From contig PATE01000088.1 in the NCBI GenBank assembly GCA_002712305.1, forward strand, positions 1-18,576: a stretch of DNA of 18,576 bases, read 5' to 3'. The translations under genes were made by a program, and so were the position numbers. This DNA comes from Gemmatimonadota bacterium (GTDB lineage: Bacteria; Latescibacterota; UBA2968; UBA8231). Shown here in pieces: positions 3,247-16,531 of this stretch. The notes beneath the pieces are model-generated. The model made no database searches, was not told where the DNA came from, and saw only the letters and a list, made by a program, of their open reading frames with translations. Position 1 is the first letter of the stretch, and each line of letters starts with the position of its first letter.

Positions 3247-3394
3247 TGGCGTTCATTCCTTTTCGAACCGGTGTATGGAGCCGTACCGCCAAGGGTGATG
3301 CCGATCCGCCGGCGGCCCCCCCCCGGTTGGACCAACTCGAATCCTAATCCTATCGTTGTCACGGAAATCATCCAAAACATGCGGTAACTCTTAC
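3247..3394. promoter_or_regulatory. Divergent intergenic region with palindromes
   Basis: This 148-base gap separates the aminotransferase (minus) from the LamG gene (plus) and should hold both promoters. It contains a 10-bp perfect palindrome CCGCCGGCGG at 3306-3315, a run of nine C at 3316-3324, an odd-length palindrome GTTGGACCAAC at 3326-3336, and a tandem AATCCT repeat at 3340-3351. The second palindrome has the shape of a dimeric regulator site, but no regulator gene is present. I see no convincing -35/-10 pair. Confidence 0.35.
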
Positions 3395-5125
3395 ATGCAA
3401 TCGGATCCGCTGAAAAACGGGCTGGTAGGCCACTGGAAATTCGTCGGAGACGCCCGGGATCACTCCGGGCACGAGAACCACGGACGTCCGCATGGCGTGG
3501 ACTTTTCGGCGCCGGGCCGGTCGGGCAAACCCGGTACGGCTGCCCGTTTCAACGGGGTGGACGATTGCATCGAGGTAAAGCATCACCCCACTCTTTCCCT
3601 TGGAAACAAGGATTTCTCGATCGCCACGTGGGTGCGGCTCGATGAGGCGCATGACGATGTGATCGGCGACATCGCCGGCAAATACGACCCGGTCGAGCGC
3701 CGCGGCTTCAACTTCTACGTCACCGCCAGTTCCTCCGGCTACAATTCCCACGGCGACAGCCGCCACCTCCATTTCGGCATCGACAACGCCATGGAGGAGT
3801 CCTGGCGCGACTGCGGCGCCCTGCATCCAACCAATACATTTGTCTCCTCCCTCACTGCCCACGACGGCCGCCTCTATGCGGCCCAGGCCGACGCCCTGGG
3901 AGACGGGTCAGATTCCTGCCACGTCTACGCATATGCCGGCGGCCACGAATGGGAGGACTGCGGCCGGGTTTCGGACGACCTTCGCCAGCGTTCGGCCTAT
4001 TCCCTCATCGCCCACAGAGGCCATCTCTATTGTGGGACCGGACAGCAGGATTGGCAGGCCGCTGGTCCCGAGCTCTGCAATTTTTCTCATGTGTATCGCT
4101 ATGTCGGCGGACGGGAGTGGGAGGATCTGGGCCAGGTGGGACGGAACTATCGCATCCTCGGGCTGGCCTCCTACAAGGGCGACCTCTACTGCGGCACCGA
4201 CGTTTCCCACCCACAGGTCTTCCCCGACTCGGGCAATGTATTTCGCTACGCCGGCGGCCAGCAATGGGAGGACTGCGGCCGCCTGGGCGAGCAGGTCCAC
4301 ACATTCGCACTGATGGTTCACAACGGCGAACTCTTCGGCGGATGCATGGGCGAAATATACCGTTATCTCGGTGACCGAAACTGGGAGTACCTCGGACAAC
4401 CGTTAGGCAACACCCAGGTTCATTGCCTGGAAGTATACCGTGGCGATCTGTGGGCGGGAACGTGGCCCCAGGGATACGTTCTCCGCTACCACCACGGCCA
4501 GACATGGGAAAATGGCGGTGTCGTCGGCGAGCGCCACGAGCGCACCACGGACCCGGTGAACGAGATCAACGACCTTACGGTCCACAATGGCTCGTTCTTC
4601 GCCGGCGTGATTCCCAGGGGCGAAGTCTGTCGCTACGAAGGGGGTCGGCAGTGGCGTGTCGTGCGACGGCTGCTGGCCAACCCCGACTACGACCCCCACC
4701 AACTCGATTCGTGGGCTCGGGTACCCAGCATTGCCGCCTTCGACGGCAAACTGTTCGCGTCGACCGGAACCTGCAGAGGCTGTCCACAGGAGCGTCCTCA
4801 CCACGAGGCCGGGCGCATCTATTCTACCCAGATTGGCAGAGCCGTATCCTGGGACCGCGACATGGGCTCTGGCTGGAACCATGTGGCCGCGGTCAGGGAG
4901 AACGACCGACTGCGCCTCTATCTGAATGGCCACCAGGTAGCGTGTTCTGATTCAATTCCAGCCAGCTGCTACGACCTCGACACGGCCGTTCCTATGTATC
5001 TCGGCTTTGGATCTGTGGACTACTTCTCCGGGGACATGGAGGACGTGCGCATGTATTGTCGGGCACTTCATCGCGAAGATGTGGCGACTCTGGCCAGTCA
5101 ATCAGCGGGCGACTCGCCATGGTGA
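3395..5125 (+). CDS. LamG (concanavalin A-like) domain protein with a seven-repeat propeller-like insert
   Basis: A 576-residue protein with an unusual layout. Residues about 8-130 are the N-terminal half of a LamG jellyroll (GLVGHWKF, ARFNGVDDCIEV, FSIATWVRLDE). Residues about 484-567 are its C-terminal half (WNHVAAVRENDRLRLYLNG, GDMEDVRMYCRAL). Between them are seven tandem units with the consensus Y-R-Y-x-G-G-x-x-W-x-D-x-G followed by x-x-G-x-L-Y-x-G-T; the second element recurs at residues 155-163, 207-215, 260-268, 309-317, 348-356, 397-405 and 449-457. Seven such four-strand units suggest a seven-bladed beta-propeller. LamG and propeller domains usually bind glycans or proteins, so a sugar-binding or surface role is inferred. 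I chose ATG 3395 because LamG starts right after it; an in-frame TTG at 3356 is also possible. Neither start shows a clear ribosome binding site or signal peptide, which is odd for a presumed surface protein. A PhyH gene follows 31 bases downstream. Confidence 0.82.
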   Translation: MQSDPLKNGLVGHWKFVGDARDHSGHENHGRPHGVDFSAPGRSGKPGTAARFNGVDDCIEVKHHPTLSLGNKDFSIATWVRLDEAHDDVIGDIAGKYDPVERRGFNFYVTASSSGYNSHGDSRHLHFGIDNAMEESWRDCGALHPTNTFVSSLTAHDGRLYAAQADALGDGSDSCHVYAYAGGHEWEDCGRVSDDLRQRSAYSLIAHRGHLYCGTGQQDWQAAGPELCNFSHVYRYVGGREWEDLGQVGRNYRILGLASYKGDLYCGTDVSHPQVFPDSGNVFRYAGGQQWEDCGRLGEQVHTFALMVHNGELFGGCMGEIYRYLGDRNWEYLGQPLGNTQVHCLEVYRGDLWAGTWPQGYVLRYHHGQTWENGGVVGERHERTTDPVNEINDLTVHNGSFFAGVIPRGEVCRYEGGRQWRVVRRLLANPDYDPHQLDSWARVPSIAAFDGKLFASTGTCRGCPQERPHHEAGRIYSTQIGRAVSWDRDMGSGWNHVAAVRENDRLRLYLNGHQVACSDSIPASCYDLDTAVPMYLGFGSVDYFSGDMEDVRMYCRALHREDVATLASQSAGDSPW

Positions 5126-5156: not shown

Positions 5157-5921
5157 ATGACGAATCGTAGCGCCATCGACGTGAGGCAGATCGTTCGATC
5201 GCTCCAAACGGATGGCGTCACACTGGTCGAGAACCAGTTGACCGACGACCAGTGTCAGCAGGCACTGGATGGAATCGAGTGGGGACTGCAGAACAAAGCG
5301 GGACCGCAGCCACTCCAGCGTCAACGTACGTATGAATGGTTCCGTGAGTTTCCGATCTTCGTCGAACTGATTGAAAACCCTCTGGTCATACAGATCGCAG
5401 ACGCCTGCCTAGGACAAGAATACCACCTGATCTGCGCGGAGATAACAAGGAACGAAAAGGACAACCACTACCTTGAAGCCGTAAAGAAAACTCACCAGGA
5501 CCACTGTTTCTTCCCCGAGCAATCTGACCTGCTCACCCAGATGCAAACACGGATGTTTGGCTTCACGGCTCAGTGGGTCGTTCTCGACATTCCTCCAGAA
5601 ATGGGCCCGACAGAGTTCATCCCGGGATCGCAAAGATCCGGCCAGCGACACACTAACGAGATCGCTCCGTCGGATTTCTCCTTCAGAAGTCATTTTCCAA
5701 GAGGCAGTCTTGTGTTGTATGACCATCGCGTCTGGCATCGAGGAACCGACAATCACTCGGAAACCGCCAGAGACCTGCCACAGAACTGCTATGCACTTCA
5801 CGCCGTGGACAAAGTTCAGATCATGACCACGTGCGAAGATGGAGCCGAGATCTACGTCCCTTGTAGCGAACTGCTTGAATCGGGCAGTGATACGATTCGG
5901 AAGCTGCTCTCACCCGTCTGA
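5157..5921 (+). CDS. PhyH-family Fe(II)/2-oxoglutarate dioxygenase
   Basis: A 254-residue PhyH-type oxygenase. The iron triad is HQD at residues 113-115 with the distal histidine H194 (in VWHRG), and R205 is the likely 2-oxoglutarate anchor. The family's opening segment is seen at about residues 10-30 (DGVTLVENQLTDDQCQQAL) and the mid-domain GPTEFIPGSQR follows. The frame is open further upstream to 5007, but that stretch overlaps the end of the LamG gene and is unlike PhyH proteins, so I place the start at ATG 5157, 31 bases after the LamG stop; its ribosome binding site is weak. The close spacing suggests one transcript with the LamG gene. It differs clearly from the other two PhyH proteins in the window around the metal ligands, so these are separate subfamilies and not recent duplicates. 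Substrate unknown. Confidence 0.88.
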   Translation: MTNRSAIDVRQIVRSLQTDGVTLVENQLTDDQCQQALDGIEWGLQNKAGPQPLQRQRTYEWFREFPIFVELIENPLVIQIADACLGQEYHLICAEITRNEKDNHYLEAVKKTHQDHCFFPEQSDLLTQMQTRMFGFTAQWVVLDIPPEMGPTEFIPGSQRSGQRHTNEIAPSDFSFRSHFPRGSLVLYDHRVWHRGTDNHSETARDLPQNCYALHAVDKVQIMTTCEDGAEIYVPCSELLESGSDTIRKLLSPV

Positions 5922-8635: not shown

Positions 8636-10438
8636 GTGATCCGGCCTAACTCGAGGCAACAAGCGCAGTGGTGGACCAGCAGCCGCCTTCTCCGACTCGG
8701 TGAACCGATCGACTTTCGATTCCACCTGCCCGCAGGTGCCTCAACGAGACCGCTGCACCTATTCGGTCGGTATCTCGAACAGGCACAGCCAGGCGATGCC
8801 TTCGCAGCCGGTGGTGATCTTGCATGGCTCGATACGGTGCCGTCGGAGACCGTCGACCTGGAGTTCGCTGGGAACACGGCATCCTTCGCCTACACGCCGC
8901 CGGAGCCCGGCAACTACCTCGCGCGATGGGGCACCGCGGACGAATCGCTCTATCGCTACTTCAGCGTCGTCGAACACGACTGGATCGTGCTGCGCTTCAG
9001 CACCTTCGGCCCCCTTGAATCAGAACCGACACTCCACGGCACGGGCATCCCTTTGGATTACCGTCTGTCGGCGGCGCAGTTCGATGCCGACGATCCGCTC
9101 TTTCAGACCATGCTTGGACACAGTCGGTCCTATGGCGATGGGCTGATCCCCTTCCTGCCGGACATGCCCTCGACCTTCTCGGTCAGTGACGAGGAGCGCG
9201 ACAAGCTGTATGCGCACCTCATCACGAAGGCACGCTCGGTGATGCCCTTTGCCGATGACATTCGTTCGGCGCGTGTGGAAATGAACCATCCCGTCGATCC
9301 CGGCTACACGACAACGCTTTCGCGGCTGGGTATCCATGACCACTGTGGCCTGCAAGAGGCCAACGCGGAACCGTGGCTTGGGATGCCCGAGTTTCCCTAC
9401 TTCTCATCGGAAGTTGACTGCCGGAAGCCGAGTCAGAAGGCGAAGGGGCAGATCGTGGCGCATCAATGGGACTTCTGCGGGGGATTCCATTTTACCGGGC
9501 CCGTCAGTTGGCACTTCAAGGTGGCCGAGGGTGATTGGGCCAAGGCCGAGCAGTGCCTGCGCCACGGGATGGAGGAATTCGAGCACCTCGCGGCGATGAG
9601 CGGCCATCCCGCATTTGTGCATCCCCTGTATGACGGTGTGCTCCCGCCGGGTTATCCCGATGACGGCGTTCTGGACGCGGGTTATCCCAATCCGAGTTTC
9701 CGCTACGACCTCGCTGATCACGGAACCGGCTCGATGCACGCGTTTGTGCAACGCTATCAGCAGTTCATGGCCTTCGAAATGCCCAAGGCGCACAAGGTTG
9801 TTTTCGCCCGATCGATCGATGTCGCCGACTACTACATTCGGCATTTCGAAAAAACACCGCGCACCGTGTTCGTCAGTCGGACAGACCACATCGACTATGA
9901 CAAATGGTGGCTCTGCACCTGGTGCAACGAGTCTCGTCTCGTGCCGGGCGGCGAGCTTCCGTGGGACACACCCATTTCGCCCCTTCACGCCAAACGAGAC
10001 GCATCACAAAGGATGTTCAAGGATCCGTTGTCGTGTGAATACATCCAGGTGGAAGATGCGAAACGGTCCATGCGTTTTGAGTACGCATGTCCCCATCCGA
10101 TCTGGTGGTTTGACTACACAGAAGAAGAACGAGTGCCGCAAGGCAGCACGATCACGGCCACCAGGACACCGGACGTACAGATCACACGATCTGAATGGAT
10201 TCGAACGAATGACGAGTGGAGTTTGACGCTGAAGATGCATTCGGCCGTCACCTTCGCCGACTATGCCATCGCCCTTTGGGACATGCCCGACGGATTCGAC
10301 GGAAATACGGAGAGTGTTCGGTCCGATGCGAAGGAGTGCATCGTCGCGTGGAACAGGATAGGGGCCCATCGTCTCATACTTGTGTTCGACCTCGTGCCGG
10401 AGATGGAACTGCACGTGACGATCACCGCCGATTCTTAG
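8636..10438 (+). CDS. Unrecognised 600-residue protein, three-part layout
   Basis: I do not recognise this family. The start is GTG 8636, well supported by GGAGGGGG at 8620-8627 and an in-frame TGA just upstream. Residues about 18-112 look like a beta-sandwich: alternating hydrophobic strands ending in PGNYLARWGT and YRYFSVVEHD, as in Ig-like domains attached to sugar enzymes. The middle (about 115-435) is rich in His, Asp, Trp and Cys, with clusters HDHCG (234-238), HQWDFCGGFHF (276-286), a near-repeat DGVLPPGYP / DGVLDAGYP (333-341, 343-351) and SRTDHIDYDKWW (414-425). These look like an enzyme active site, perhaps metal-binding. The C-terminal part (about 470-600) again looks like beta strands. 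No signal peptide or membrane segment is seen. A carbohydrate-active enzyme is possible but unproven. It follows a creatininase-family gene and is convergent, with a 10-base gap, with a methyltransferase. Confidence 0.8.
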   Translation: MIRPNSRQQAQWWTSSRLLRLGEPIDFRFHLPAGASTRPLHLFGRYLEQAQPGDAFAAGGDLAWLDTVPSETVDLEFAGNTASFAYTPPEPGNYLARWGTADESLYRYFSVVEHDWIVLRFSTFGPLESEPTLHGTGIPLDYRLSAAQFDADDPLFQTMLGHSRSYGDGLIPFLPDMPSTFSVSDEERDKLYAHLITKARSVMPFADDIRSARVEMNHPVDPGYTTTLSRLGIHDHCGLQEANAEPWLGMPEFPYFSSEVDCRKPSQKAKGQIVAHQWDFCGGFHFTGPVSWHFKVAEGDWAKAEQCLRHGMEEFEHLAAMSGHPAFVHPLYDGVLPPGYPDDGVLDAGYPNPSFRYDLADHGTGSMHAFVQRYQQFMAFEMPKAHKVVFARSIDVADYYIRHFEKTPRTVFVSRTDHIDYDKWWLCTWCNESRLVPGGELPWDTPISPLHAKRDASQRMFKDPLSCEYIQVEDAKRSMRFEYACPHPIWWFDYTEEERVPQGSTITATRTPDVQITRSEWIRTNDEWSLTLKMHSAVTFADYAIALWDMPDGFDGNTESVRSDAKECIVAWNRIGAHRLILVFDLVPEMELHVTITADS

Positions 10439-15148: not shown

Positions 15149-16531
15149 CTAGCCTGCTTCGGTCAGGTCGTAGAGAGCGATGATGTAGGGATGCTCCGGG
15201 TCATAGGTCGTCAACGTCTGTGGGTCTTCAACATGACCACGTGGGCGGCAACCGCTACCGACTACCCCCGAGGCCTCACACCCCAGATCGGTCCTCGCCC
15301 TGGTTGCATGGGCTTGCAGTTCGGCGACGATCTCCGGCTGTTGCTCGAAGAGATTGGTCGTTTCGCCCACGTCGTTGTGTAGATCGTACAGTTCGCTCAC
15401 TTCTTCGGCGTCGCGACCACGTCGCACATGCAACTTCCACCGTTCATTGCGGATTGCCTGCAACGTGTTCTGCCAGTAGTAGAAGAAGACCTCGTGCGGG
15501 CTGGTGGCACCCTCTTCGGCTTGCAGCAACGGCGTAATGTCGCGGCCGTCGATGAGGCGATCCTGCGGCTCGGTCGTGCCTGCCAGGCGTGCCAGTGTCG
15601 GTAACAGATCCATGGACGTGGTCAGCTCGGAACAGGTCGATCCCGCCGGGATCTGCCCGGGCCAGCGAGCGATCAGAGGCAGCCGCATGCCGCCTTCCCA
15701 GGTCGTGCCCTTCGTGCCCCGCAAGGGGTCATTGCTACCGCCCTCATGTGTGCGGGATCCATTGTCAGAGGTGAAAAGGACCATCGTATTGTCATCGAGG
15801 CCCAGACGCTGCAATTCGTCAAAGAGCACGCCCACACTCCAATCGATGGCCTCCACGCATGCGCCATAGGGGCCATTGCGTGACTGGTCTATGAACCGTG
15901 GGGCTGCGTAGAGCGGCAGATGTACGTGCATGTGGGCGAAATACAGGAAGAAGGGCTGGTCCTGGTGCGCGCGCAGAAAACGCACGCCTTCCTCCACGTA
16001 ACGCTCGGTCAGACCGGTCTGATCGGGCTGAGCCTGGATGACCTCGTCGTCCCGCAGCAGGGGCAAGGGAGGCCAGCGATCCTCGCGACCCACCTGACGT
16101 CCCATGTCATTGGAGTAGGGCAGACCGTAGTAGTGATCGAATCCATGGCGTGTCGGCAGGAACTCCGGCTGGTCTCCCAGGTGCCACTTGCCCACCAGTT
16201 GCGTGGCGTAGCCCTGCTCCTGCAGTAGTCGAGCGATGGTGACTTCGTCAGGATGCAGACCCGCCTTGTCGCCGGGGAACAACACGGCCCGGCCGTCGCC
16301 ACCGGTGCCCAGACCGATGCGTGGCGGATAACACCCGGTCATCAATGCGCCTCTGGACGGTGAACAGACAGGTGAGGCCATGTAGAAGTCGGTGCAGCGC
16401 AGTCCCTCGGCGGCCATGCGATCCAGATGTGGTGTGGCGTGAAGGGTGGAGCCGTAACAGCCCACATCGCCGTAGCCGAGGTCGTCGCAGTTGATGAGAA
16501 TGATGTTCGGTCGATCTGTGGGAGATCTCAT
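15149..16531 (-). CDS. Sulfatase (formylglycine-dependent, arylsulfatase type), no signal peptide
   Basis: A 460-residue type I sulfatase that removes sulfate esters. Metal ligands D16-D17 lie in NCDDLGYGD, and C56 in the CSPSR signature (56-60) is the residue converted to formylglycine. GKWHLG (K115, H117), H204 in HMHVHLP, D256-N257 in TSDNGS and K274 complete the active site. The C-terminal domain has the usual YYWQNTLQAIRNERWKLH and a DVGETTNL region. The pattern is closest to arylsulfatase A / N-acetylgalactosamine-6-sulfatase types. The protein starts only eight residues before the first core strand, and no start exists further upstream in frame, so there is no export signal; most relatives are periplasmic. 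No formylglycine-generating enzyme or anaerobic maturase is in the window. It heads the minus-strand gene run that continues with an OPT-like membrane protein and GH32. Confidence 0.93.
   Translation of the reverse strand: MRSPTDRPNIILINCDDLGYGDVGCYGSTLHATPHLDRMAAEGLRCTDFYMASPVCSPSRGALMTGCYPPRIGLGTGGDGRAVLFPGDKAGLHPDEVTIARLLQEQGYATQLVGKWHLGDQPEFLPTRHGFDHYYGLPYSNDMGRQVGREDRWPPLPLLRDDEVIQAQPDQTGLTERYVEEGVRFLRAHQDQPFFLYFAHMHVHLPLYAAPRFIDQSRNGPYGACVEAIDWSVGVLFDELQRLGLDDNTMVLFTSDNGSRTHEGGSNDPLRGTKGTTWEGGMRLPLIARWPGQIPAGSTCSELTTSMDLLPTLARLAGTTEPQDRLIDGRDITPLLQAEEGATSPHEVFFYYWQNTLQAIRNERWKLHVRRGRDAEEVSELYDLHNDVGETTNLFEQQPEIVAELQAHATRARTDLGCEASGVVGSGCRPRGHVEDPQTLTTYDPEHPYIIALYDLTEAG

Follow-up and report, generated by a model that had tools for sequence, protein, structure and literature searches.

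A predicted seven-bladed propeller nested in the LamG jellyroll of a bacterial protein family

LamG jellyrolls and propellers in described proteins

The concanavalin A-like jellyroll of the Laminin_G_3 type (PF13385; solved in 4qvs) and the β-propeller are both common folds. LamG-type jellyrolls commonly bind glycans, and LamG jellyrolls and propellers also bind many other things. The nesting of a whole propeller within a jellyroll loop, as predicted for the protein described here, is unusual, and no account of such an architecture was found in the literature searched.

Among known propellers, those of the Kelch type (KLHL3, KLHL20, Keap1, SAKe6) have the same strand order and the same hydrophobic, Gly, Tyr, and Trp positions as the inserted repeats (profile matches with E between 1e-9 and 1e-5). 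The best fold match is virginiamycin B lyase (Vgb, a streptogramin lyase; 2z2o), which forms a closed seven-bladed ring and is not nested. Sialidases and trans-sialidases hold the same two folds in one chain, an Asp-box propeller and a LamG-like lectin domain, and share with our protein the Trp after the turn at the c-d position. In the sialidases, however, the lectin domain is a flanking or decorating module of the propeller, the reverse of the nesting here (PMC12355970, PMC8865650), and the Ser/Thr and Asp of their Asp-boxes are absent from our protein. The Vibrio adhesins Bap1 and RbmC combine a propeller closed by a Velcro strand with sugar-binding modules into a two-sided adhesive (PMC10102183). 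They differ in having eight blades and β-prisms instead of a LamG jellyroll, and they are likened to our protein by description.

A split LamG jellyroll and its inserted repeats

The window is the whole stretch of DNA analyzed (18,576 nucleotides, contig PATE01000088.1). The gene under study encodes a protein of 576 residues (P0001), with the following features:

3395-5125, + strand: whole gene, 576 amino acids, ATG start; homologues align across residues 6-566
3395-3796, + strand: N-terminal LamG part, residues 1-134 (AlphaFold2/DSSP, Pfam, PDB chain 4qvs)
3797-4831, + strand: inserted propeller, residues 135-479 (AlphaFold2, VIA-align)
3806-3820, + strand: closing strand, residues 138-142, assigned from topology as the fourth strand of blade 7 (DSSP, full-length matches to seven-bladed propellers)
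3839-3967, + strand: blade 1, residues 149-191 (AlphaFold2/DSSP)
3992-4135, + strand: blade 2, residues 200-247 (AlphaFold2/DSSP)
4151-4282, + strand: blade 3, residues 253-296 (AlphaFold2/DSSP)
4307-4396, + strand: blade 4, residues 305-334 (AlphaFold2/DSSP)
4415-4522, + strand: blade 5, residues 341-376, with Gln341 (4415-4417) and Trp357-Pro358 (model and conservation)
4559-4669, + strand: blade 6, residues 389-425, with Glu390 (4562-4564) and Pro407 (model and conservation)
4718-4828, + strand: Arg442 (4718-4720) and the first three strands of blade 7, residues 446-478 (model and conservation)
4832-5122, + strand: C-terminal LamG part, residues 480-576 (Pfam Laminin_G_3, AlphaFold2)

With the whole protein as query, Laminin_G_3 scores 58 bits, above the curated cut-off of 27.6, and only the C-terminal part lies above threshold (residues 492-564 on profile positions 79-151, E 1.6e-15). 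Taken alone, the C-terminal part scores 47.7 bits; the N-terminal part gives a weak match to positions 10-54 (E 0.008, 16.7 bits). When the two are joined in silico at 134/480, a single match covers almost the whole profile (positions 10-151, E 1.1e-17, 65.1 bits). Two distant homologues, L067 and L111, behave likewise: once joined, both cover positions 2-151 (86.3 and 74.6 bits). The gain on joining is from 58 to 65 bits in the 576-residue protein, from 81 to 86 in L067, and from 67 to 75 in L111. All 63 aligned members match Laminin_G_3 at E ≤ 1. The motifs W-x-H-V-A and L-x-L-Y-x-x-G of the family are conserved. The LamG-type chain 4qvs_A aligns to the N-terminal part with E 3e-4, and the profile aligns 4qvs to both parts, its residues 86-122 occupying the place of residues 92-478 here (profile positions that are near, not exactly, residue numbers). 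Unlike in an ordinary Laminin_G_3 domain, an insert of about 345 residues separates two neighboring strands; residues 135-479 interrupt the domain, which is contiguous only once its parts are joined. An annotation showing only part of the LamG match misreads such proteins as carrying half domains. An NCBIfam match to TafC falls far under the family cut-off and was rejected.

The AlphaFold2 model of the whole protein (63 aligned homologues) has a pLDDT of 93.5 and a pTM of 0.94. Its LamG strands are 10-14, 30-33, 50-53, 58-61, 74-82, 91-98, 103-110, and 124-134 in the N-terminal part (assigned with DSSP) and 480-486, 493-502, 505-510, 513-517, 534-536, and 545-554 in the C-terminal part, all at pLDDT of about 97-98. 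Between the two parts, the predicted order is strand 138-142, six blades of four strands, and three strands in 446-478. Residues 131-484 folded alone give the same strands (pLDDT 93.1, pTM 0.93). The model strongly supports one LamG jellyroll that holds, in an insert between two neighboring strands, a propeller of seven blades forming a closed ring. A complete, self-closing Kelch-like propeller would thus sit in the loop that joins two jellyroll strands, one ending at 134 and the other beginning at 480, with blade 7 closed by one N-terminal and three C-terminal strands. From topology, this one-plus-three closure would bring the ends of the propeller close together on the outer edge, where blade 7 makes its c-d turn, so that the jellyroll loop can accept the propeller with neither fold disturbed. 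The connections at the junctions are a few residues long and are predicted at pLDDT 96-97; the two domains are therefore probably held rigidly together. It is hardly credible that we have here ordinary consecutive domains, with a LamG match made of two half-domains that do not pack, since only the above-threshold Pfam match to the C-terminal part alone speaks for it, against the continuous profile match of the joined parts and their pLDDT and pTM in a single model.

The units of the insert are anchored on the turn glycines 158, 209, 262, 311, 350, 399, and 451 and on the tryptophans 186, 242, 291, 330, 371, 420, and 137. On average, pairs of these units score 53 with BLOSUM62, compared with -33 ± 2.8 for 2000 shuffles, none of which exceeds -23. 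Of the seventh unit, the last strand lies at 138-142 and the first three in 446-478, so that it is split across the ring. With VIA-align, the propeller alone matches virginiamycin B lyase (Z 30.3, rmsd 2.5, 287 of 295 residues aligned) and other complete seven-bladed rings, E. coli YncE (Z 28.9) and WD40 rings of the RACK1 type (Z about 28-29), differences in Z that are small and not to be over-read. With the whole model as query, propellers fill the match list, so that this search bears mainly on the propeller part.

A preliminary description, made from the letters, had read here a LamG domain split around seven tandem units. The reading frame, the coordinates, the split, and the units are all real; the prediction has the halves packing together, the repeats closing into a ring through the N-terminal strand that completes blade 7, and the propeller nested in a jellyroll loop. 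The same description held that the repeat is not a standard Kelch or WD40 unit. It is indeed no textbook unit of either, but the comparison of profiles makes it Kelch-like, without the Gly-Gly of Kelch or the residues of the Asp-box. Against solved Kelch propellers, the repeat profile reaches E 2.5e-9 for the best match (the designed SAKe6BC) and 6e-9 for KLHL3. The Gly-Gly that closes the second Kelch strand is missing, with Ala-Gly-Thr in its place (consensus L-Y-A-G-T), and no Kelch model scores clearly: the 576-residue protein matches no Pfam Kelch model, and among the 63 members the best match is to Kelch_2 (E 0.012; four members). The WD40 model has one weak match in one of the 63 members, and WD40 rings resemble the propeller in fold alone. 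An Asp-box, suggested by the G-G-x-x-W spacing, was rejected; S/T-x-D-x-G-x-x-W is absent, and at its place one finds mostly R-Y-x-G-G-x-x-W (third position A, V, A, L, H, E), lacking the Ser/Thr and the Asp.

Conserved residues and possible functions

Repeat residues apart, conservation is strictest at Gln341, Glu390, and Arg442, which are invariant in 63 of 63 members and also in an alignment of 20 rows. Each stands nine residues ahead of the turn glycine, in blades 5, 6, and 7, respectively; the equivalent ring position is variable in blades 1-4. Trp357-Pro358 (blade 5) and Pro407 (blade 6), in the b-c loops, are invariant or nearly so, and general propeller topology would place them, too, on the channel-mouth face. 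Such invariance is strong evidence, at the level of alignments, for a functional site of some kind. The three residues likely form a candidate ligand pocket on the propeller face away from the jellyroll, a position and a side of attachment argued from the strand order and general propeller topology. They offer a clear target for mutagenesis.

No experiments on any family member were found in the literature searched. Our best guess is a two-faced glycan-binding protein, and we favor, with some reserve, the joint reading of the nested LamG-propeller structure with two-faced (glycan-type) binding through a pocket of Gln341, Glu390, Arg442, and Trp357. The jellyroll would bind a glycan or a similar ligand. 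The propeller would bind a second ligand in the pocket formed by these four residues at the channel mouth, which, from propeller topology, would lie on the face opposite the attachment of the jellyroll. A glycan-type ligand is preferred because such ligands are common for LamG-type jellyrolls and because many relatives are secreted. Secreted planctomycete forms and leaderless forms like ours would differ in the compartment where they meet the ligand, but not in the kind of ligand bound.

The main and serious rival, although we hold it to be less likely, is that the propeller has enzymatic activity, as a lyase or hydrolase of a glycan or a small molecule, with Gln341, Glu390, Arg442, and Trp357 in the active site and the LamG domain as substrate-binding module. 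Adjacent blades carry, at equivalent positions of the channel, three polar residues that differ from one another and never vary, as would suit an active site, and the Gln/Glu/Arg/Trp set could equally be catalytic. Polysaccharide lyases exist among other seven-bladed propellers, and the window holds genes of catabolic type (a GH32-like protein, creatininases, PhyH oxygenases). The nearest solved fold, virginiamycin B lyase, is itself an enzyme; its identity to our protein in the structural alignment is, however, 8-9%, the likeness is one of fold only, which shows no function, and WD40 non-enzymes lie within 1-2 Z units. In addition, none of the His, Tyr, or metal-ligand sets that typify known propeller lyases was seen to be invariant in the alignment of 63 members.

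Less probable still is a structural adaptor, in which the ring at the channel mouth would bind a protein or peptide partner while the jellyroll anchors the protein to a surface or to a second protein. Keap1-type propellers bind peptides at the ring formed by the starts of the a strands, and Kelch adaptors are the best profile matches among solved structures. Yet no partner gene travels with the propeller-LamG gene, no neighbor recurring across 80 loci, and the mixture of phyla in the homologue tree speaks for a free ligand that many bacteria encounter. One protein of about 390 residues (L067:4465-5646, L017:321-1445, L106:5633-6760) was considered as partner and rejected; it belongs to no Pfam family and is very abundant in the phylum (up to 20 copies per genome), and its adjacency is taken as chance.

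Distribution, genomic setting, and a second, apparently nested repeat family

A scan of the contigs of related genomes with the single sequence gave no match to close relatives. With the alignment as query, tblastn finds 330 related stretches, and nearly all of the best 80 of these, which were kept, span the whole protein. Relatives at the level of the genus, the family, and the class share the full domain order. Among named records, a Candidatus Latescibacterota bin supplies the closest homologue (67% identity), and on this ground the window is assigned to that phylum, in which 33 of 64 genomes carry the family. The titles of the best 80 of 330 name Latescibacterota, Planctomycetota, Verrucomicrobiota, Chloroflexota, Armatimonadota, Hydrogenedentota, Sumerlaeota, Lentisphaerota, Acidobacteriota, Gemmatimonadota, and the cultivated Paenibacillus eucommiae, many of them being names of metagenome bins that may be wrong. 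On these similarities, the architecture is found in hundreds of relatives from about ten phyla, mostly of uncultured bacteria, and is thus widespread in poorly known environmental organisms. The cultivated carrier, P. eucommiae DSM 26048 (L067), makes the family testable. In the homologue tree the phyla are intermixed, which suggests lateral transfer of the gene. Some copies (L013/L041, L048, L106) carry in-frame stops or frame breaks; these could be sequencing errors in metagenome bins or decayed genes.

The preliminary description had found the lack of a signal peptide puzzling. It is lacking in the 576-residue protein, and the 13 residues that would be added by an in-frame TTG at 3356, upstream of the ATG, are non-hydrophobic; but the family as a whole does not share this lack. 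By a simple hydrophobicity rule (no trained predictor) and by eye, about half of the sampled homologues have a leader, mostly those of planctomycetes and some Tat-like, and none was seen in the Latescibacterota sampled. At least nine changes of state are needed on the tree.

The source genome encodes three more proteins with a LamG-like start, repeats, and then the rest of a LamG domain: P0002 (L007, contig C21), P0003 (L005, C23), and P0004 (L006, C78). Their units read F-D-G-R-Y-V-Y-F / S-W-x-x-Y-D, seven being counted by eye in P0004, which has no significant similarity to the 576-residue protein. Joining the LamG parts raises the Laminin_G_3 scores from 34.5, 41.7, and 31.5 to 44.5, 44.5, and 42.1 bits, each in a single stretch. 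By eye, the insertion appears to be one loop earlier in LamG, so that from these comparisons a second seven-repeat family, found in 31 of the 64 genomes, apparently uses another LamG loop as its insertion site. That one genome should have two such families, unrelated to each other and apparently in two different LamG loops, leads us to suggest, tentatively, that LamG jellyrolls are recurrent hosts for whole propellers and that these probably carry a conserved new site for catalysis or binding. If so, "propeller-in-jellyroll" would be a general, so far undescribed building plan for two-site proteins.

The source assembly has 4.77 Mb in 146 contigs. In the window, a PhyH-type dioxygenase (5157-5921, + strand) starts about 31 bases past 5125 on the same strand; such a neighbor was not seen beside close homologues. 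A protein of 600 residues (8636-10438, + strand) has no Pfam or NCBIfam match. At 15149-16531 (- strand), a sulfatase-like protein, called by eye, starts without an evident leader; given this neighbor, leaderless catabolic proteins may be usual in the source genome. Elsewhere in this genome (contig C29, 8415-9944), the paralogue L010 is 38% identical to the 576-residue protein and is without about the first 45 residues, corresponding to the first LamG strands; a similar copy is present in genome G001.
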